DNA of 32,795 nt from Magnetococcales bacterium (GTDB taxonomy: Bacteria; Pseudomonadota; Magnetococcia; Magnetococcales; Magnetaquicoccaceae). Positions 1,064 through 32,669 of the stretch are shown here, piece after piece. Within the stretch, counting starts at the first letter, position 1; each line of letters begins with the position of its first letter. The DNA lies in contig JADGAR010000040.1 of assembly GCA_015231915.1 (NCBI GenBank), positions 1 to 32,795 of the forward strand. The letters are read 5' to 3'. The position numbers and the translations under genes were made by a program. The notes under the pieces were generated by a model that had not been told where the DNA came from, did no database searches, and saw only the letters and a list, made by a program, of their open reading frames with translations.

Positions 1064-2536
1064 ATGGATGTGGTCTTGCGCGCCGACGCAGGCGTGAACA
1101 TCGGAGGCGGGCATGTCATGCGCTGCCTGACCCTGGCGCAGGCACTGGAGCGCCAGGGGGCGGATGTGGCCTTCGCCTGCCGGACGGGCACGGAGCAGGT
1201 GGTCTCCCGGCTGGCGGAACGGACATGGCGGGAACTGCCGCAGGGTCTCGCCCCGGAACAGGAAGCGCAATACCTGGCCGACGGGTGGCCGGAAGGGTGC
1301 GAATTGCTGGTGGTGGACCATTACGGCCTGGACGCCCGCTTCGAACGGGCCTGTCGCGGCTGGGCGCAGCGGATTCTGGTGATCGACGACCTGGCGGATC
1401 GCTCCCACGATGCGGAGTGGCTGCTGGATCAGACTCCGGGGCGCGAGGCGCAGGATTATGCCGGTCGGGTGAACCCGGAGTGTCGCCTGCTGCTGGGCGC
1501 GGATCATCTCTTGTTGCGGCCCGCCTTCGCCAGCGCCAGGCACGCGGCGCGGAGCCGCCGTCTGGCCGGGGGCAGGAGCGGACGCCTGCTGGTCACCTTG
1601 GGGTTGACCGACGCCCACAACGTCACCGCACGGATCCTGGAGGGGATCGCCGCTGCCGGCGTGGCGGCGGAAGTGGACGTGGTGCTGGGAGGTGGCGCCC
1701 CGCACCTGGACGCGGTGCGCGCGTTGACGCGCGGCATGCCTTTTCCGGTCACTTTGCATGTGGATGTCAGCCGGATGGAGCGGCTCATGGCGCAGGCGGA
1801 CCTGGCCATCGGCGCGGGGGGAACCTCTGCCTGGGAACGGTGTTGCCTGGGATTGCCGGCCATCACCGTGACCATCGCCGACAATCAGTTCGGGGTGGCG
1901 CGCGTGCTGGAGGAGGCCGGCGCCTCGCTGACCGCTGCCCCCGGCGAGGTTGCCGCGCGGCTTGCAGACCTCTGGGAAGACGACGCCAGGCTCGCACGCA
2001 TGGGGGTCAATGCCGCCAGCCTCTGCGACGGTCTGGGCGCGCCCCGCACCGCCATGCTCCTGCGCCCCGGACGCGCCGCCGACGGTCGTCCCGTGCGGCT
2101 GCGGCCAGCCACCTTGAACGATGCCCGTCTGGTCTGGACCTGGCAACAGGAACCCGGCATCCGCCGCCATGCCCGCCAGCCCCGTCCCCCTGCCTGGGAG
2201 GAGCACCTGGCCTGGATGACGGATCGCCTGGCCGATCCCGGCACGTTGTTTCATCTGATCCTGCACGGGGAGGAGCCTGCGGGTCTGTTGCGTTTCGACC
2301 GCCTGCCGGATGGGAGGTACGAGGTCTCGATCCTGGTCGCCACTGCCAGCCAGCGGCTGGGGTTGGCTGCCGAGGCCGTGCGTCTGGGCCGCTTTCTCCT
2401 GCCGGAAGCCACGTTGCTGGCCTGGATCAAACCGGAAAACAGCGCCTCCCTGGCCCTGTTCGCCAAGGCGGGGTATCGTCGTCTGGACGCGCATCGTTTC
2501 ATCCTGGAACCCACGGAGGTGCAAGAGGCGGAATGA
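1064..2536 (+). CDS. pseG: PseG UDP-sugar hydrolase fused to a GNAT acetyltransferase (PseG-PseH-like bifunctional protein)
   Basis: 490 aa, far longer than a stand-alone PseG of roughly 300-350 aa. Residues 1-335 are PseG: the N-terminal GGGHVMRCLTLA with the expected catalytic His17, DHYGLD at 85-90, and the nucleotide-binding GAGGTSAWERC near 260. PseG removes UDP from UDP-2,4-diacetamido-2,4,6-trideoxy-L-altrose in pseudaminic acid synthesis. Residues 353-485 look like a GNAT fold (VRLRPATLNDARLVWTW, then EVSILVA and LGLAAEAVRL), matching the role of PseH, the N-acetyltransferase one or two steps earlier. The fusion would join the acetylation and UDP-release steps in one chain. The ATG has AAGGAG 7 nt upstream. 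It overlaps pseI by ATGA. The PseH assignment rests on context; the GNAT part could acylate another position. Confidence 0.88.
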   Translation: MDVVLRADAGVNIGGGHVMRCLTLAQALERQGADVAFACRTGTEQVVSRLAERTWRELPQGLAPEQEAQYLADGWPEGCELLVVDHYGLDARFERACRGWAQRILVIDDLADRSHDAEWLLDQTPGREAQDYAGRVNPECRLLLGADHLLLRPAFASARHAARSRRLAGGRSGRLLVTLGLTDAHNVTARILEGIAAAGVAAEVDVVLGGGAPHLDAVRALTRGMPFPVTLHVDVSRMERLMAQADLAIGAGGTSAWERCCLGLPAITVTIADNQFGVARVLEEAGASLTAAPGEVAARLADLWEDDARLARMGVNAASLCDGLGAPRTAMLLRPGRAADGRPVRLRPATLNDARLVWTWQQEPGIRRHARQPRPPAWEEHLAWMTDRLADPGTLFHLILHGEEPAGLLRFDRLPDGRYEVSILVATASQRLGLAAEAVRLGRFLLPEATLLAWIKPENSASLALFAKAGYRRLDAHRFILEPTEVQEAE

Positions 2537-3594
2537 GCAAACCCGTCATGCGGATCGGCCAGCGTGCCATCGGCGTCGAACATCCCCCTTACGTCATCGC
2601 GGAACTCTCCGCCAACCACAACGGCGATCTCGCAGCGGCCCTGCATCTGCTGGAGGCGGCACACGCAGCCGGGGCGGATGCCGTCAAGCTGCAAACCTAC
2701 ACCGCCGACACCATCACCATCGATCATGACGGCCCGGAATTCCGCATTCGCGGCGGTCTTTGGGACGGCAACACCCTGTATCGGCTCTATCAGCAGGCGC
2801 ATACCCCCTGGGAGTGGCATCCCGCGCTCTTCGCGCGGGCGGCGGAGTTGGGGTTGCCCCTTTTCAGTTCGCCCTTCGATCCCACGGCGGTGGATTTCCT
2901 GGAACGACTCGCCGCTCCGGCCTACAAGATCGCCTCGTTCGAGTTGGTGGATCTGCCCTTGATCCGGCGGGTGGCCGCCACCGGCAAGCCGATGATCCTC
3001 TCCACCGGCATGGCCGATCTGTCGGAGGTGGCCGCTGCCGTGGCGGCGGCAGAGGAGGGGGGATGCCGGGAGCTGGCCCTGCTGCACTGCGTGAGCGGCT
3101 ATCCCACCCCGGCCAACGAATGCAACCTGCGTGCGATCCACACCCTGGCCGAGGCGTTTCCCCGTGCGGTCGTCGGGCTGTCCGACCACACCCTGGAGAC
3201 CACGGTCCCGGTGGCTGCCGTGGCCCTGGGCGCGGCGATCATCGAGAAACATTTTACCATGTCCCGGGCCGACGGGGGACCGGATGCCGCCTTCTCCCTG
3301 GAACCCGATGAGCTGGGCGCGGTCTGCCGGGGGTGTCGCGTGGCCTGGTCGGCCCTGGGCGCCGGGGGGTGGGAACTCAAGCCCAGCGAGGCGGGCAACC
3401 GCATGTTCCGGCGTTCTCTCTACGTGGTGGCCGACATGGCGGCAGGAGAGCGGTTCACCCCGGAGAACGTGCGCAGCATCCGGCCTGCCCATGGGCTGCC
3501 CCCTGCGGAGCTGCCCCGGATCCTGGGCCGGCGGGCGCGGTGCGCCATCGGGCGCGGCACCCCCTTGCGCCGCGAGCTGGTGGAGGAGTCATGA
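2533..3594 (+). CDS. pseI: Pseudaminic acid synthase
   Basis: 353 aa, the usual length for the NeuB/PseI family. It condenses phosphoenolpyruvate with 6-deoxy-AltdiNAc to give pseudaminic acid. The N-terminal TIM-barrel part (residues 15-280) carries AELSANHNGD, ADAVKLQTYT, STGMADLSE, LLHCVSGYPTP and GLSDHTLE, and the family metal/PEP signature IIEKHFTM. Residues about 290-350 are the antifreeze-like SAF domain (RRSLYVVADMAAGE, ending RILGRRARCAIGRGTPL). SANHNGD together with the PseG neighbour favours PseI over NeuB. The ATG overlaps the pseG stop, and the stop overlaps the next ATG (ATGA), so translation of the three genes is probably coupled. Confidence 0.92.
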   Translation: MSKPVMRIGQRAIGVEHPPYVIAELSANHNGDLAAALHLLEAAHAAGADAVKLQTYTADTITIDHDGPEFRIRGGLWDGNTLYRLYQQAHTPWEWHPALFARAAELGLPLFSSPFDPTAVDFLERLAAPAYKIASFELVDLPLIRRVAATGKPMILSTGMADLSEVAAAVAAAEEGGCRELALLHCVSGYPTPANECNLRAIHTLAEAFPRAVVGLSDHTLETTVPVAAVALGAAIIEKHFTMSRADGGPDAAFSLEPDELGAVCRGCRVAWSALGAGGWELKPSEAGNRMFRRSLYVVADMAAGERFTPENVRSIRPAHGLPPAELPRILGRRARCAIGRGTPLRRELVEES

Positions 3595-25941: not shown

Positions 25942-26642
25942 GGCGTGCCTGGGAAAGAACGGGAGAGCAACCACTCCGCGACCAGCAGGTCCCGCTCGGA
26001 ATCGATATCCAGCGACCGTTCCGGGGGCATGACGAGTGCCCTGGTATGGGCGTCCATGAAGCGGGCGGAGCGCTGCAGCCAGTCGGTGCGGGCCACCAGG
26101 ACCGCGCCGTTGAGGAGGTGGGCGCGGGGGAGGTCCTGGCGGTTGGCGCGGGTGTGATCGCCGGGCAGCACCGGACGCATGGCGCCGGCCTCGTCCACGA
26201 AGAACATCCACCAGGGAGGTTTTTCTGCCGGAGTGACCGTCACGCAACTGTCGGCCCCCTCCCGGACGCACAGTTCGAGGCAGTCGGTGATGTCTTGCGC
26301 GGTGCGCAGGGGCGCGGTGGGTTGCAGCCAGACCAGATAGTCGTAGCGTTCCGGCAGGGTGGCCAGCAGATGCAGGGCCACGTCGATGGCCAGGGTATGG
26401 TCGGCGGCCAGTTCCGGGGGGCGGGGAAAGGGGCATTCGCAGCCCCACTGGCGTGCGATGGCGATGATCTCCGCGTCTTCGGAGGAGAGCACCAGACGGT
26501 CGATCTCCGGGCAGCCCCGCGCCGCCTCGATGGTCCAGGCCAGCAGCGGTTTGCCTGCCACCATGCGGATGTTCTTGCGCGCCACCCCTCTGGACCCGCC
26601 GCGTGCCGGGATCACGGCCAGCACGCTCGCCCCGTGGATCAT
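25908..26642 (-). CDS. neuA: CMP-nonulosonic acid cytidylyltransferase (NeuA/LegF family)
   Basis: 244 aa; ATG at 26642 overlaps the neuB stop (ATGA), with GAGGAG upstream. Activates a nonulosonic acid with CTP to the CMP-sugar. Signature VLAVIPARGGSRGVARKNIR at the N-terminus binds CTP; GKPLLAWTIEAA, LVLSSEDAEIIAIA, LVWLQPTAPLRTAQDI, and RQDLPRAHLLNGAVLVART follow, with the Asp motif ERSLDIDSERDLLVAE near the end. LQPTAPLR and the closing DIDSERD pattern are closer to LegF/NeuA than to PseF as far as can be judged by eye. No second domain is attached. The 3' end runs 34 bp into the HAD gene. Confidence 0.85.
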   Translation of the reverse strand: MIHGASVLAVIPARGGSRGVARKNIRMVAGKPLLAWTIEAARGCPEIDRLVLSSEDAEIIAIARQWGCECPFPRPPELAADHTLAIDVALHLLATLPERYDYLVWLQPTAPLRTAQDITDCLELCVREGADSCVTVTPAEKPPWWMFFVDEAGAMRPVLPGDHTRANRQDLPRAHLLNGAVLVARTDWLQRSARFMDAHTRALVMPPERSLDIDSERDLLVAEWLLSRSFPGTPCASASTSTTP

Positions 26643-27751
26643 GATGACTCTCCTCGATCGACGATCAGTTCGTCCGGTTGATAATCCCGTGGTGCGGCAC
26701 GCCCCAGCCACTGCCAGTAGGCCATGGGCGAGATGCCCGATCCTGGCCGCTTGATCCCCAGATTGTGTTCCGAAAAGCACTCTCCCTGGGCGACGGGTGC
26801 GATGGCGACCAGGCTTTTGCGCGCCACGGCCCGGTTTTTCCATTCCGCAGCCATGGGGAGCTTGTGTCCATGGCCTTGCAGGGCGGTTTCCACCTCGCGA
26901 ATGGCGCGCACCATGGCGGCCAGTTCGTCCGGTTCCAGCGAGGCCCGATGGTCCGGGCCGGGCAGGGTGCGGTCCAGGGTGAAGTGCTTTTCGATCACCA
27001 CTGCCCCGCGTGCCACGGCGGCGATCGGTATGGCGATCCCTGCGGTATGGTCCGAATAGCCCACCGGCAGCCCGAAGGCGGCGGCCATGGCATCCATGGC
27101 CCGCAGGTTGACCTGATCGACGGGTGCGGGGTATTCGGTGGTGCAGTGGAGCAGGGTGACCCGTTCTTCCAGGATCGCCTGGCCTGCCGGAGAGGCGAAG
27201 GCCCCTGCGCAGCCCGCCAGGGAGGGCGGCTCCGGGAGGCCCAGCAGCCCGAAGGCCAGGGCGCCCAGCGCGGTTTCGATCTCTCCCAGGGTGGCCATCC
27301 CGGTGGAGAGGAGAATCCGGCGTCCCGTGGCCCCCACCCGCACCAGAAACGGCCCGTTGGTCACCTCGCCGGAGGGGATCTTGAGGAGCGGCAGATCCAT
27401 TTCGGCAACGAGAAACTCCAGGCTGGGCAGGTCGAACGGGGTGGAGAGGAAGGCGATACCCCGCGCCCGGCAGTGGTCTGCCAGCCGCAGGTGGGTGGCA
27501 TGGTCCAGCTCCAGTCGCCGGATCATGGCGAACTGGGACTCCTCCGGATCGGTGGTGGCCTGCTGATAGGTGGCCTTGCGGGCGTTCCGGCTGACCAGTT
27601 CTGCGGCGCGGAAGGTCTGGAACTTGACTGCGTCCGCACCGGCGTCCGCCGCCGCGTCCACCAGGCGCAGGGCCAGTTCCGGATGACCGTTATGGTTGAC
27701 TCCGGCCTCGGCGATGATGGTGACGGAGGGTGTCGCGGGGGTGCTTTTCAC
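26639..27751 (-). CDS. neuB: Nonulosonic acid synthase (NeuB/LegI-like)
   Basis: 370 aa from a GTG at 27751 that overlaps the neuC stop (GTGA). Condenses a 2-acetamido-2-deoxy-hexose (ManNAc or its 4-amino-6-deoxy derivative) with phosphoenolpyruvate. Motifs: IIAEAGVNHNGHPELALRLV, ADAVKFQTFRAAELVS, GIAFLSTPFDLPSLEFL, LLKIPSGEVTNGPFLV, LSTGMATLGEIE, LLHCTTEYPAP, VGYSDHTAGIAIPIAA and VVIEKHFTLDRTLPGPDHRA, then a short SAF-type C-terminal domain (ARKSLVAIAPVAQGE). GVNHNG plus PGPDHRAS fits NeuB/LegI and is clearly different from the PseI paralogue at 2533. This makes two distinct synthases in one window. Which of NeuB or LegI it is depends on whether its substrate is ManNAc or the 4-amino-6-deoxy form, and no LegB/LegC-type genes are in the window. 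Confidence 0.9.
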   Translation of the reverse strand: MKSTPATPSVTIIAEAGVNHNGHPELALRLVDAAADAGADAVKFQTFRAAELVSRNARKATYQQATTDPEESQFAMIRRLELDHATHLRLADHCRARGIAFLSTPFDLPSLEFLVAEMDLPLLKIPSGEVTNGPFLVRVGATGRRILLSTGMATLGEIETALGALAFGLLGLPEPPSLAGCAGAFASPAGQAILEERVTLLHCTTEYPAPVDQVNLRAMDAMAAAFGLPVGYSDHTAGIAIPIAAVARGAVVIEKHFTLDRTLPGPDHRASLEPDELAAMVRAIREVETALQGHGHKLPMAAEWKNRAVARKSLVAIAPVAQGECFSEHNLGIKRPGSGISPMAYWQWLGRAAPRDYQPDELIVDRGESS

Positions 27752-28959
27752 ACGGTCATTCCCTTGGCCAGCAGGGTGCGTTTGCCGGGGAGGTTGAGCA
27801 GGATCTCCAGGGAGCGTTGCGCCATGTGGCCGTCTCCGTAGAGGGTGTGACCCGGGCGGACGGTTTGCCGGTATGCCGCATCGAAAGCGGCGCGCCGGAT
27901 GGCCTCTGTCAGCGCGCCTGGTTCCGCAGGGACGTTTTGTACGTTGCCGGCGTTCATGCGGTCGCGCTGCCGCTCTCCCACGTTGACCGCCGGCAGTCCC
28001 AGGAACGGGGCCTCGTGAAAAGCGAGGGAGGAGTTGCCCACCAGGCAGAGGGCATGTCGCAGCAGGGAGAGAAAAAAGTTCCGTTCCAGGTGGCGGTAGA
28101 CCGTCACCTGGGGATGGTCCGCGTAGCCGTCGATGACCCGTTGGATTTCCAGATGGCCGGGATCGCTGTTGGGCGCGCCGATGAACAGATGCAGGCCGTT
28201 GGCCAAAGCGGCCTCGATGCAGAGTTCGGCCTCCTCGGCGTCCCGGCGCAGCCCGGCGTCGGGCAGGGGGTGATGGATCAGGATGAGATACTCCTCCGCC
28301 GCCCCGTCTCCCACCCTTTGGCACAAGGTGGCGCGATCCGGGCAGGGTTCGGTGCGCAGTCGGTCCACGCCGCCGCTGCCGACCGCATGGACCCGCCAGG
28401 GTTCCTCGCCCAGTGCCCGCACCCGCGCGGCATGGGCTTCGTTCATGGTGAGGTGGATGTGGCTCAATTTGGTGGCGGCGTGGCGGATCGATTCGTCCGG
28501 ATTGCCGTCCCGGGAGGCGATGTGATCCCCGCCGGCCAGATGGACCACCGGGATCCCCAGGTAGAGGCCGCTCAAGCCGCCCGCGACCGGTTCCTCCCGG
28601 TCGCCCAGGGTGATCAGCAGGTCCGGGGCTTCCCGGGCCAGGGTTTGCCCCAGTTCCGCGATCAGCAGACCGGTCGAGCGCACCTTGCCCACCCGCGAGG
28701 AGGAGTGCAGCAGATTTTCGATGCGTTCCGCGATGCGCAGGCCGTCCGCTTCGATCTGACGCACCGATTCGTGATGCAGGCCGGTCAGGTGGGCGCCGCA
28801 CACGATCACCCCGACATCGAAAGCGGGATGGGCATGCAGGGCGGCCAGCAGGGGATAAAGCAGATCGTATTCCGAGCGGATGCCGGTCAGGGCGAGCACC
28901 TTGAGTCGCCCGCCCCGTTCCGCCAGCAGGGTGGTCAGGCTGTCGGGCGATGGGGGCAT
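27748..28959 (-). CDS. neuC: UDP-GlcNAc (or UDP-bacillosamine-type) 2-epimerase, hydrolysing, NeuC/LegG family
   Basis: 403 aa from ATG 28959, which lies inside the 3' end of the fur gene (25-bp overlap) and has no good ribosome binding site; a GTG at 28899, near the usual start of the fold (KVLALTGIRSEYDLL), is an alternative. GT-B-type fold with HLTGLHHESVRQIEADGL, LGDREEPVAGGLSGLYLGIP, HLAGGDHIASRDGNPDESIR (catalytic Asp/Glu region), HAVGSGGVDRL and LCLVGNSSLAFHEAPFLGLP. The enzyme converts UDP-GlcNAc to ManNAc plus UDP, or the 2,4-diacetamido analogue, feeding NeuB. As first sugar gene it commits flux to the nonulosonic acid. The start is the least certain point. Confidence 0.88.
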   Translation of the reverse strand: MPPSPDSLTTLLAERGGRLKVLALTGIRSEYDLLYPLLAALHAHPAFDVGVIVCGAHLTGLHHESVRQIEADGLRIAERIENLLHSSSRVGKVRSTGLLIAELGQTLAREAPDLLITLGDREEPVAGGLSGLYLGIPVVHLAGGDHIASRDGNPDESIRHAATKLSHIHLTMNEAHAARVRALGEEPWRVHAVGSGGVDRLRTEPCPDRATLCQRVGDGAAEEYLILIHHPLPDAGLRRDAEEAELCIEAALANGLHLFIGAPNSDPGHLEIQRVIDGYADHPQVTVYRHLERNFFLSLLRHALCLVGNSSLAFHEAPFLGLPAVNVGERQRDRMNAGNVQNVPAEPGALTEAIRRAAFDAAYRQTVRPGHTLYGDGHMAQRSLEILLNLPGKRTLLAKGMTV

Positions 28960-29366
28960 TGGGGGTTCATGCAATTGACATAGAGGGAGAGGGCATGGTC
29001 CTGCACCTCGAAGCCCCGTTCGTGCGCGATTTCCCGTTGGCGTTTCTCGATCACCGGATCGACGAACTCCTCCACACGCCCGCATTGCAGGCAGATGAGG
29101 TGGTCGTGGTGTTCCCCCTGGTTGAGTTCGAAGATGGCCCGGTTCGCCTCGAAGTGGCTGCGCGACAGGAGACCGGCGTGTTCGAACTGGGTCAGCACCC
29201 GGTAGATGGTGGCCAGGCCGATCTCTTCTCCGTCGGCGAGGAGGCGTTTGTACACCTCTTCGGCGCTCATGTGCTGGCCGGCGTCCGAGACGAACAGGCG
29301 CAGCACCTTCATCCGGGGAGCCGTTGCCTTGAGACCCGCGTTTTTGAGATCTTGATTCATGTCCAT
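28935..29366 (-). CDS. fur: Fur-family metal-dependent transcriptional regulator
   Basis: 143 aa from ATG 29366 with AAGGAG 7 nt upstream; an ATG at 29414 in frame lacks one. Winged-helix part at 1-80 (LKATAPRMKVLRLFVSDAGQ, EEIGLATIYRVLTQFEHAGL). Metal sites: His32, GEHHDHLICLQCGRVEEFVD with His86, 87 and 89, Cys92 and Cys95, and the second pair Cys132/Cys137 in CMNPQCPH, giving the structural Zn(Cys)4 site. Fur senses Fe(II) and usually represses; Zur or Mur are other members that cannot be excluded by eye. It is the first gene of the nonulosonic acid operon and neuC starts inside it, so the two are co-expressed. A TTGACA lies at 29405-29410 on the minus strand, but a matching -10 at normal distance is not seen. 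Confidence 0.9.
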   Translation of the reverse strand: MDMNQDLKNAGLKATAPRMKVLRLFVSDAGQHMSAEEVYKRLLADGEEIGLATIYRVLTQFEHAGLLSRSHFEANRAIFELNQGEHHDHLICLQCGRVEEFVDPVIEKRQREIAHERGFEVQDHALSLYVNCMNPQCPHRPTA

Positions 29367-29516
29367 GGCCCGCTCCTTGTGTCTCAGATGATAACGCCAC
29401 AACCTGTCAACCAAATTCTCGCATGTTCGCTGCCGGAAGGCAACCGGGAATCCATGATTGGCGCGAGCAATTATTCATGCGGGCGCGCGAGAGTTCGGGA
29501 GGGGGTGCGAAAGGGA

Positions 29517-29546: not shown

Positions 29547-29597
29547 GGATCGCAGAGCTTGTTTTGTTTCGTTCGTCCCGGTTGAGGAGTGTTCTCC

Positions 29598-30428
29598 ATG
29601 CGCAAATTCATTCTCCCCCTGTTGGCGGCGTTTTGCATGGTGTTCGTGGCCACGGCGGCCCGCGCCGATGTCCTGATCCTGGCCCACGGCTATCTGGGCA
29701 GTTCGGCCTCCTGGGAAGCCAGTGGCGTGGTCCCGATTCTCGCCGGCAAGGGATGGGAACGGGCCGGCATCCTGGGCTATGGCCCTGGCGGGGTGCAGTT
29801 GATTCCCGGCCTGGGTGGGAGCGGTCGGAACAAGATCTATCTGGTGGACCTTCCCTCGGCGGCGCCGCTGGGGTTGCAGGCCGACCATCTGGCCCCCATG
29901 TTGCGCCTGCTGGCGGCCAGGCATCCCAGGGAGAGGTTCATCCTGGTTGGCCACTCGGTGGGGGGTCTGGTCCTGAGGTTGGCCCTGGTGCGTGGACTGG
30001 TCACCAATCCGGTGGCGCTCGTCACCATTGCCTCGCCCCATCTGGGCACCCCTCGTGCCGAGCAGGCACTGCACGCCACCAACGACATCTGGCCCGTGGA
30101 GGTCTTCAAGGATTTCTTCGGCGGTGGGGGCTACCAAACATTGAAATATTCCCGTGGACTTTATGTGGACATCGTGCGTCCCTGGCCCGGTTCTCTGCTC
30201 TACTGGCTGAATCTCCAGCGTCATCCTGACATCCATTACGTCTCGGTGGCGCGGGGCACGCCGTTCGTTTTGCTGGGGGACATCCTGGTGCCCGGCCCCA
30301 GTCAGGACATGAACCGGATTCCGGCCCTGCGTGGCCGCTCCACCCTCTATACCCTGGGAACCGGGCACGAACTCAATCCCGCGGATGGATTCACTCTGGT
30401 CAATATATTGAAAGACTTGAAAAAATGA
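29598..30428 (+). CDS. Exported alpha/beta-hydrolase (lipase-like)
   Basis: 276 aa from ATG 29598; a GTG at 29589 in frame is possible, but it overlaps the GAGGAG ribosome binding site. Residues 1-23 are a signal peptide (ILPLLAAFCMVFVATAARA), so it acts in the periplasm or is secreted. The nucleophile elbow is ILVGHSVGGLVLRLAL (G-H-S-V-G, serine) and the oxyanion strand is VLILAHGYLGSSASWEASG. LVTIASPHLGTPRAEQA and the closing LYTLGTGHELNPADGFTLV hold the likely His. This fits the class of triacylglycerol lipases/esterases related to LipA-type and PGAP1-like enzymes; the substrate is not certain. The stop overlaps the dmeF ATG by ATGA. Confidence 0.83.
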   Translation: MRKFILPLLAAFCMVFVATAARADVLILAHGYLGSSASWEASGVVPILAGKGWERAGILGYGPGGVQLIPGLGGSGRNKIYLVDLPSAAPLGLQADHLAPMLRLLAARHPRERFILVGHSVGGLVLRLALVRGLVTNPVALVTIASPHLGTPRAEQALHATNDIWPVEVFKDFFGGGGYQTLKYSRGLYVDIVRPWPGSLLYWLNLQRHPDIHYVSVARGTPFVLLGDILVPGPSQDMNRIPALRGRSTLYTLGTGHELNPADGFTLVNILKDLKK

Positions 30429-31387
30429 GCTTACACGATCTTGCCGTATGGCAACACGAACACCATTTCGGCCTGGATGTCCAGCAGACCGGCGAACGTC
30501 AGACCCTGCTGGTCGTCTGGTTGACCTGCGTCACCATGGTCGTGGAGTTGGTGGCCGGATATGCCACCGGCTCCATGGCTCTCACCGCCGACGGTTGGCA
30601 CATGGGGACCCACGCTGCGGCTTTGGGTCTGGCGGCCTTCGCCTACCGTTTTGCCCGCCGCAACGTCAACAATCCCCGCTTCACCTTCGGCACCGGCAAG
30701 GTGGGCGCCCTGGGAGGGTTTGCCAGTGCCGTGGCCCTGGCCATCGTGGCCATCCTCATGGCGGTTGAATCCGTTCAGCGTCTCATCACCCCGGTCCCGG
30801 TGGAGTTCAAAGCTGCCCTGCTGGTGGCGGTAACCGGCTTGCTGGTCAATCTGCTGAGCGCCAAACTGCTCGGCAGCGCCCATCACCACCACCATCATCA
30901 TGATCACGATGACCATGTTGATCACGATGACCATGATGATCACGATGACCATCACCAGGACCACAATCTGAAGGGGGCTTATCTGCATGTCCTGGCCGAT
31001 GCTCTCACTTCGGTGACGGCCATTGTCGCCTTGATTTGTGGCATGAGTCTGGGGTGGGTGTGGATGGATCCTCTGATGGGGGTGATCGGTTCCCTGGTGA
31101 TTGGCGTGTGGGCTTTGGGTCTCATCCGGGAAAGCGCCAAGACCCTCCTGGACGCCGAGGACAACTTCTCCCTGCGCGAGAAGGTGCGCGAGCGGTTGCA
31201 GTCGCACGAGGATTGCGAGGTGACCGATCTGCATATCTGGCGCGTGGGGCCGTCCAGTCATGCCTGTATCGTCTCGTTGCTTGTTCATCGACCGCGTGCT
31301 TCCGACCATTACAAGTCCTTGTTGCAGGGGATTGGCGGGTTGGCGCACGTCAGCGTGGAGGTAAACCATTGTCGCACCTGCGGGTGA
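30425..31387 (+). CDS. dmeF: Cation diffusion facilitator, DmeF-like Co/Ni efflux transporter
   Basis: 320 aa, six predicted membrane helices (about 28-48, 63-77, 95-115, 127-147, 184-205, 210-232), then a cytoplasmic ferredoxin-like domain at 245-320. Metal site residues: His59 and His63 in TM2 (ADGWHMGTH) and His188 and Asp192 in TM5 (HVLADALTSV). TM2 with His at the position where zinc CDFs have Asp is a feature I associate with DmeF. The loop between TM4 and TM5 (153-180) has 15 His and 11 Asp in 28 residues, suited to binding metal before export. The closing HCRTCG carries a His/Cys motif. DmeF exports Co(II) and Ni(II) in exchange for protons. The ATG overlaps the hydrolase stop. Confidence 0.88.
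   Translation: MSLHDLAVWQHEHHFGLDVQQTGERQTLLVVWLTCVTMVVELVAGYATGSMALTADGWHMGTHAAALGLAAFAYRFARRNVNNPRFTFGTGKVGALGGFASAVALAIVAILMAVESVQRLITPVPVEFKAALLVAVTGLLVNLLSAKLLGSAHHHHHHHDHDDHVDHDDHDDHDDHHQDHNLKGAYLHVLADALTSVTAIVALICGMSLGWVWMDPLMGVIGSLVIGVWALGLIRESAKTLLDAEDNFSLREKVRERLQSHEDCEVTDLHIWRVGPSSHACIVSLLVHRPRASDHYKSLLQGIGGLAHVSVEVNHCRTCG
30902..30952 (+). repeat. 18-bp period repeat in the His/Asp loop of dmeF
   Basis: The 15-mer GATCACGATGACCAT occurs without mismatch at 30902-30916, 30920-30934 and 30938-30952, separated by GTT and GAT. It encodes DHDDHV/DHDDHD units. Perfect identity at DNA level points to recent slippage expansion of the metal-binding loop. Confidence 0.9.
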
Positions 31388-31414
31388 CCGCTTCGTTGTT
31401 CTGGGAGAGTGTTC

Positions 31415-32023
31415 ATGTCCATTGAGGAGCGCATTTTGCGGGAGTTGGCTCGTTTGCCTGCTTCCCTGGCGGAGGAGGTATTGCATTTCATCGGCTATTT
31501 GGCGGATCGTCATGCCAGGGGCTTGGAGGCGGGATCCGAGGTTGCCTCTCCGGTGCGGGTGGATGCGGTTGTGTTTGATTTTGATGGGGTTTTGACGGAC
31601 AACCGGGTATTGGTGCGTCAGGATGGCATTGAGAGTGTGACGTGCAGTCGCGGGGATGGCATGGGTTTCGGCTTGTTGCGCAAGGCGGGGATTCCGGTTT
31701 TCATCATGTCCACCGAGACCAATCCGGTGGTGAGCGCCCGGGCTGCGAAGTTGAAGGTTCCGGTGATGCAGGCTGTCGAGGACAAGGGATCGGCTGTGCG
31801 CGAGTTGTGTGAGCGTGAGGGGTTCGCGCCGGAGCGGATTCTGTTTGTTGGCAATGACATCAATGATTTGCCTGCCTTCCGTGTTGTCGGATATCCTGTT
31901 GCGGTGGGCGATGCCATGCCTGTGGTCAAGCAGGCGGCCTGGCGGGTTTTGCGCACCCCTGGCGGGGCCGGAGTGGTTCGGGAATTGATGCAAGATGTGC
32001 TCGGCATGAGCGATACCCGTTGA
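31415..32023 (+). CDS. KdsC-like HAD phosphatase with N-terminal DUF2281-like segment
   Basis: 202 aa, ATG 31415 with GGGAGAG upstream (a GTG at 31409 is also possible). Residues 48-202 are a C0-type HAD phosphatase like KdsC: nucleophile Asp55 and Asp57 in VFDFDGVLTDNRV, SRGDGMGFGLLRKAG at 78-92, IMSTET at 98-102, Lys124 in EDKGSAV, and GNDINDLPAF at 146-155. KdsC makes Kdo by removing phosphate from Kdo-8-P; related enzymes act on nonulosonic acid 9-phosphates. Residues 1-36 (SIEERILRELARLPASLAEE, then VLHFIGYLADRHARG) resemble DUF2281, a helical module of VapB-type antitoxins, which KdsC proteins normally lack. Third codon positions are unusually T-rich for this window. gmhA follows after 22 bp. 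Confidence 0.83.
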   Translation: MSIEERILRELARLPASLAEEVLHFIGYLADRHARGLEAGSEVASPVRVDAVVFDFDGVLTDNRVLVRQDGIESVTCSRGDGMGFGLLRKAGIPVFIMSTETNPVVSARAAKLKVPVMQAVEDKGSAVRELCEREGFAPERILFVGNDINDLPAFRVVGYPVAVGDAMPVVKQAAWRVLRTPGGAGVVRELMQDVLGMSDTR

Positions 32024-32045: not shown

Positions 32046-32669
32046 ATGTCTCAGGCATTTGCCACCACGACCACTGCCCATGTGAGTGCCTTGTTGGAGC
32101 GTTCCATCGAGTTGAAGCGTCAGGTGTTGACCACCGAGATTCCGGCCATCACTGCCCGTATGGCTTTGTTGTGTGCTGATGTCATTGCTGCCGGGGGCAA
32201 GCTTTTGTTTTGCGGCAATGGAGGTTCTGCTGCCGATGCTCAGCATTTGGCTGCTGAATTGTTGGTTCGTTTGCGTCCGGATGTCAATCGTCAGGGTTTG
32301 CCGGCTTTGGCTTTGGCCATGGACACTTCTTCCATGACCGCCTGTGGCAACGATTACAGTTACGAGGTTTTTTATGCCCGCATGACCCAGGCTTTGGGGC
32401 GAAAGGGGGATGTTTTGATTGGCATCACCACTTCCGGCAATTCTCCCAATGTCACCGAGGCCTTGAAGACCGCACGTGCTCTTGGCATTCATACTTTGGG
32501 TTTGTTGGGTGGCAAGGGGGGGCAGGCGTTGCCCTGGTGTGATCTGGCCATCGTTGTACCTTCGCGGGAGACCGGACGGATTCAGGAGGTACATATCACC
32601 ATTGGTCATGCCTTGATGGAGGCCATTGAGGAGAGTCTGTTGGAACGTGGGTTTCTTGCCAGGCAATAA
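32046..32669 (+). CDS. gmhA: Sedoheptulose-7-phosphate isomerase (phosphoheptose isomerase)
   Basis: 207 aa, ATG with AAGGAG 8 nt upstream. SIS-domain protein with the GmhA signature LLFCGNGGSAADAQHLAAEL (52-71), DTSSMTACGNDYSYEVFY (93-110), GDVLIGITTSGNSPNVTEAL (121-140) and the C-terminal RIQEVHITIGHALMEAIE. His67, Glu71, Gln180 and His188 correspond to the metal and active-site residues known for E. coli GmhA. It converts sedoheptulose-7-phosphate to D-glycero-D-manno-heptose-7-phosphate for LPS inner core or other heptose glycans. The same T-rich codon use as the gene before it suggests that both entered together. The TAA stop is followed by a hairpin array that may end transcription. Confidence 0.92.
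   Translation: MSQAFATTTTAHVSALLERSIELKRQVLTTEIPAITARMALLCADVIAAGGKLLFCGNGGSAADAQHLAAELLVRLRPDVNRQGLPALALAMDTSSMTACGNDYSYEVFYARMTQALGRKGDVLIGITTSGNSPNVTEALKTARALGIHTLGLLGGKGGQALPWCDLAIVVPSRETGRIQEVHITIGHALMEAIEESLLERGFLARQ

Follow-up and report, generated by a model that had tools for sequence, protein, structure and literature searches.

The locus described here raises the question of why a phosphatase of the KdsC type should begin with a segment resembling the antitoxin family DUF2281, and what such a segment might do there. The stretch of DNA analysed (the window, 32,795 nucleotides) is contig C68 of a draft genome (G000; 4.02 Mb in 133 contigs). As read from the window sequence, the gene runs on the forward strand from an ATG at 31415 to a stop codon ending at 32023 and encodes 202 amino acids; a GTG at 31409, two codons 5' of this ATG, provides an alternative start. 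On sequence evidence, we confirm it as a real, conserved chimeric gene that combines a DUF2281-like N-terminus with a KdsC-fold HAD phosphatase. The parts of the gene and its neighbours are as follows.

28938..29414, - strand: gene that we take to encode a Fur-family-like regulator; conserved neighbour (synteny alone)
29589..30428, + strand: lipase/esterase-like gene; conserved neighbour
30425..31387, + strand: CDF (cation-efflux) transporter gene, 27 nt 5' of the fusion gene
31403..31407, + strand: Shine-Dalgarno-like GGGAG, 7 nt 5' of the ATG (from sequence); in the sister species G001, too, GGGAG stands before the ATG
31415..31519, + strand: DUF2281-like helical hairpin, residues 1-35 (homology, selection, AlphaFold2)
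31520..31555, + strand: linker, residues 36-47 (low model confidence; no protein-level selection seen)
31556..32020, + strand: HAD phosphatase of KdsC/KDN9PP fold, residues 48-202 (nucleophile D55, specificity pair E101/K112)
32046..32669, + strand: SIS-domain gene, GmhA-like sedoheptulose-7-phosphate isomerase, 3' of the fusion in the window and in G001

An antitoxin-like hairpin joined to a KdsC-fold phosphatase

We compared residues 1-47 with curated profiles and obtained two matches under the cut-off: positions 2-28 of the 64 in PF10047 (DUF2281) gave 19.8 bits where 26.5 are required (E 0.0012), and positions 1-29 of the 65 in NF050009 (TA_VapB) gave 23.1 bits where 60 are required (E 8.1e-5). 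PF10047 fits this genus poorly, since none of its 11 genomes has a match above the cut-off, their own stand-alone proteins included, and sub-threshold places occur in 7 of the 11. A genus profile built from eight stand-alone DUF2281 proteins, cut to their first 40 residues (eight of the ten PF10047 places; two were not used), scored 54.4 bits for the window N-terminus and 46.2 bits for that of the sister species, as against a best of 13.2 bits among 20,000 shuffles and of 5.1 bits among the N-termini of 1,839 ORFs (window gene excluded), which rules out a chance resemblance to DUF2281. The domain search proposed in the initial annotation thus missed the curated cut-offs and was decisive against the genus's own proteins, so that a significant DUF2281 match, whose lack would have spoken against the fusion, is present in substance. 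In addition, residues 1-40 share 41-49% identity with four DUF2281 proteins of the genus, with L14, P15, E21, L23 and L29 invariant in the alignment with genus DUF2281 proteins, and PF10047 and NF050009 each recognise every one of the ten rows of alignment A1 (two fusions, eight stand-alone proteins) with E no higher than 0.1. At the DNA level, the likeness to stand-alone DUF2281 copies reaches 79% over 48 bases and 84% over 43, stretches too short for dating a transfer.

Like the DUF2281/VapB antitoxins (PF10047, NF050009), of which close copies occur in the genus, the fusion has the N-terminal hairpin LPxxLAxEVLxFIxYL; unlike them, it is joined to an enzyme, has no toxin gene seen adjoining it and lacks the antitoxin C-terminal half, the matches ending at position 28 of 64 (PF10047) and 29 of 65 (NF050009). 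An AlphaFold2 model of the whole fusion predicts helices at residues 3-12 and 16-38 with a turn at LP 14-15, then a linker modelled with low confidence, and after it the HAD fold. This model was built from alignment A2, where, as in A3, MAFFT had wrongly set the stand-alone hairpins against the DFDG strand; a model of the module alone, from the clean alignment A1, agrees with it in the helices (3-13 and 16-41), with pLDDT 93-97 over the first 30 residues. The module of 36 residues originally suggested was therefore right to within one or two residues.

Residues 48-199 match the KdsC/YrbI-type HAD core, with PDB entry 3mmz at E 9.6e-51 by sequence, so that both halves of the fusion first suggested are borne out. 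In line with this, Foldseek searches with the predicted structure returned 3mmz at E 6.9e-24 and KdsC entries at E about 1e-17, and the phosphatase part carries D55, D57 and GNDINDLPA, which we take to be the HAD catalytic motifs. The nearest solved relative, 3mmz, a HAD hydrolase from Streptomyces avermitilis that is 52% identical over the structural match, is without a matched hairpin, and its entry title names no specific function. The statement that KdsC phosphatases start just before the DFDG motif holds only roughly, as the listed stand-alone relatives start some 10-46 residues before it.

Translation start and selection on the N-terminus

In the one species pair that could be compared (the window and sister species G001, since the fusion is known in two species only), dN/dS (NG86) was 0.054 over residues 1-35, 1.14 over residues 36-47 and 0.052 over residues 48-202. 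Nonsynonymous change was deficient over residues 1-35 (Fisher p 1.9e-7), no deficit was found in the linker (Fisher p 0.74), and hairpin and linker differed from each other in nonsynonymous change (Fisher p 0.0004). These values indicate that residues 1-35 are translated and under protein-level selection. They also argue against a true start after residue 40, the outcome that the initial annotation had regarded as damaging to its proposal, and we reject such a downstream start. One version of it would have translation begin inside the frame, at a GTG at residue 47 or 49, leaving residues 1-46 as an upstream reading frame. GTG codons do exist at 31553 and 31559, but the low dN/dS of residues 1-35, a reading frame that in either species runs uninterrupted into the phosphatase, in-frame DUF2281 homology and the GGGAG site 5' of the ATG at 31415 make this highly improbable.

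Distribution of the fusion and a shared upstream locus

A whole-protein search of 61 genomes found matches over residues 1-202 only in the window genome and in G001, the one further species to emerge from the wider search that had been suggested. Eight other genomes of the genus (G002, G003 and G005-G010) match from about residue 39-49 onward, and G004 (76% complete) had no match to the whole protein. The second copy lies in record PDZX01000010.1 (L034), the Magnetococcales MAG WMHbin3, and is 92% identical over its full length. Assembly error could in principle have joined two genes, the source being a draft of 133 contigs, but the presence of the same fusion in a separate record, with the joint inside one contig in both, renders this explanation scarcely credible, and we reject it. 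Among the best 80 of 105 relatives, the close relatives of the fusion in named records are Magnetococcales MAGs, with PDZX01000010.1 the nearest, and the hairpin can be recognised by eye only in L034; one of these 80 loci, L107, has no usable start. Across 398 genomes of the phylum, PF10047 had matches in 37, with no listed frame longer than 263 aa; the window fusion itself falls below the threshold of this search, so further fusions are possible.

In the eight sister genomes with partial matches, the open frame instead has a cytidylyltransferase before the phosphatase (Pfam was run on two of these frames and NCBIfam on three). This second type of fusion stands behind the CDF gene in seven of the eight species and elsewhere in the eighth, G003, where its locus (L134, G003:C101) lies behind a gene that reads as cyclase-like and the CDF gene is not upstream. 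The Fur-like, lipase-like and CDF genes are found upstream in G000, G001, G002, G005 and G007-G010, the CDF gene alone in G006, on a short contig, and none of the three in G003. The sister-species fusions thus share phosphatase and locus with the window fusion and differ in carrying a cytidylyltransferase of about 238 residues where the hairpin stands. Common upstream genes combined with a different N-terminal domain indicate that two alternative domains occupy one slot before the same phosphatase. The arrangement of the sister species is also that of vertebrate CMP-sialic acid synthetase (C-domain 3ewi), whose C-domain is reported to be without phosphatase activity and to form a tetramer that acts as an oligomerisation platform for the N-domain (PMC8636478). 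In a three-protein tree, G000 and G001 branch as sister to the rest of the genus (86.8/85), a topology that does not tell replacement of a cytidylyltransferase from two separate gains of a domain; the HAD tree does not place G003 firmly, and the nearest outside relatives in that tree are mostly stand-alone.

The translation start differs together with the domain: the fusion has its own GGGAG and follows the CDF gene after a gap of 27 nt, whereas in five sister species (G005-G008 and G010) the stop codon of the CDF gene and the ATG that opens the cytidylyltransferase gene overlap. Such a difference might be expected if the hairpin were a passenger, recombination having placed an antitoxin ribosome site and first codons before the phosphatase, with relevance for expression or solubility only. 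However, residues 1-35 are as strongly constrained at the protein level as the enzyme is, which is more than a mere leader would need, and we regard the passenger explanation as rather unlikely.

Stand-alone DUF2281 genes and their toxin neighbours

Two stand-alone DUF2281 copies in the genus adjoin PemK-family toxin genes (43.3 and 29.1 bits; cut-off 23.1), while others adjoin ORFs that read as PIN-like. At L114:1441-2005 and L191:1017-1575, DUF2281 genes overlap PemK/MazF-like toxin genes. The pairing with a PemK/MazF-like toxin differs from the PIN/VapC pairing described in two papers, one showing neutralisation in E. coli for a VapC/DUF2281 pair (PMC12654330) and the other listing DUF2281-PIN pairs in Synechocystis (PMC4963859). 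An apparent second chimera on contig C26 of G001 was discarded, as the match to residues 3-77 crosses a stop codon and the DUF2281 gene there stands alone, with a PemK-like gene behind it.

Close relatives of the hairpin are encoded elsewhere in both fusion genomes (contigs C46 and C88 of G000; C44 and C26 of G001), which makes mixed pairing possible. The fusion might then still belong to a toxin-antitoxin circuit, its hairpin pairing with stand-alone DUF2281 antitoxins or with toxins and tying envelope sugar synthesis to the toxin-antitoxin state. Against this stand the missing C-terminal half (the NF050009 match covers positions 1-29 of 65, that of PF10047 positions 2-28 of 64) and the immediate surroundings of the fusion, where the neighbours are the CDF and GmhA-like genes and no toxin gene was seen; we consider such a circuit unlikely.

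Specificity signature of the phosphatase

The phosphatase scores below the cut-offs of the KdsC models TIGR01670 (78.3 bits; cut-off 106.95) and NF007019 (87.7 bits; cut-off 208) and of the KDN-9-phosphate phosphatase model NF058599 (80.6 bits; cut-off 180). Alignment with 3e81 equates E101 and K112 with E56 and K67 of the KDN-9-phosphate phosphatase of Bacteroides thetaiotaomicron (3e81, 4hgo), residues which, according to the PDB entry titles, are mutated in 4hgq (E56A) and 4hgr (E56A/K67A). This enzyme shares the HAD fold and the Glu/Lys pair with the fusion, and differs in its sequence (the structural match has about 34% identity) and in being without the N-terminal hairpin. KdsC, the KDO-8-phosphate phosphatase, likewise shares the fold and the catalytic motifs but has, in KdsC-type rows, an Arg-type specificity residue.

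Of 109 aligned rows, in which some genes appear under two identifiers (G001/L034, G005/L035, G007/L036, G003/L037, G006/L038 and G008/L062) and from which L107 and whole-protein matches without a locus were excluded, 95 have Glu/Lys and 14 have Arg together with Glu, Asp or Ala. The Arg rows are the relatives' lower-scoring KdsC-type matches of the whole-protein search, and the Glu/Lys pair is present in all ten members of this phosphatase group that the genus encodes. The KdsC specificity implied by the initial annotation is thus not supported, the pair being of the KDN-9-phosphate phosphatase type and the Arg of KdsC absent, and the fusion phosphatase is most likely of the nonulosonate-9-phosphate type. 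More generally, a 'KdsC-like' label can conceal a Glu/Lys, KDN-9-phosphate-like clade.

The genus genomes (G000-G010) encode kdsA above cut-off in 9 of 11 cases and kdsB likewise in 9 of 11, and TIGR01670 has no match above cut-off in any of the 11; the sole match above 23 bits, in 10 of 11, is the fusion phosphatase or its cytidylyltransferase-fused relative. As kdsA and kdsB are present with no other KdsC-type match in the genus, KDO-8-phosphate is a possible substrate. The same pattern would suggest that the fusion is simply the KdsC of the genus, a reading against which the Glu/Lys signature speaks and which we did not adopt. With kdsA and kdsB but no canonical Arg-type KdsC found, either the KDO pathway is incomplete in the genus or its phosphatase is of a different kind.

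A proposed role for the hairpin

Drawing on the fusion, its conservation, the slot, the loss of the antitoxin C-terminal half and the Glu/Lys signature, all taken from sequence, we infer both the substrate class and a role in oligomerisation or docking. The explanation towards which we lean, with slightly more confidence than doubt, is that a DUF2281 antitoxin hairpin has come to sit on a nonulosonate-9-phosphate-type phosphatase, where, held by a flexible linker, it now acts as a module for oligomerisation or docking. The front part of the protein would correspond to the N-terminal hairpin of those DUF2281 antitoxins that the genus encodes beside PemK/MazF-like and PIN-like toxin genes, placed in the slot that a cytidylyltransferase domain holds in sister species. 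The C-terminal half of antitoxins generally binds the toxin; since this half is missing, the hairpin on its own is not expected to neutralise a toxin. KdsC-fold phosphatases are tetramers in known members, and if every N-terminus bears a freely linked hairpin, these hairpins could connect tetramers or dock a partner. The roles first suggested, regulating the tetramer or targeting it to a partner, are conceivable. Sequence searches found no structure of any DUF2281 protein, the only hits being to FliG with no E value below 0.48; a dimerising role of the hairpin is therefore an extrapolation even for the stand-alone family.

A bolder version of the proposal, which we think quite unlikely, would place the phosphatase in mixed assemblies with DUF2281 antitoxins, a surface-sugar step being tuned by the toxin-antitoxin state and the slot acting as a swap site for interaction modules. 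The fusion is a clear example of an antitoxin fragment taken over into a metabolic enzyme and maintained there by selection, while sister species carry a different domain in that slot. Should the hairpin determine the state of assembly, the fusion would offer a small testable system for the domestication of toxin-antitoxin interaction modules. The fusion does not appear in titles and abstracts, mostly from the open literature, on DUF2281, DUF2281 fusions, KdsC-cytidylyltransferase fusions or Magnetococcales toxin-antitoxin systems.

Other features of the window

The window contains, at 25971-29414 on the - strand, a nonulosonate-looking cluster with genes that read as NeuC-, NeuB- and NeuA-like, and a cytidylyltransferase match at 25971-26627 represents a separate source of a cytidylyltransferase in the window. 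On the + strand, frames at 1064-3594 resemble the pseudaminic acid synthesis proteins PseG/PseH and PseI. Finally, the CDF transporter (30425-31387) has a long His/Asp-rich loop (HHHHHHHDHDDHVDHDDHDDHDDHH), and a frame on the - strand at 263-2524 carries heptad-like repeats (FAAIDKRFDELNASIDKRF) that suggest a coiled coil.
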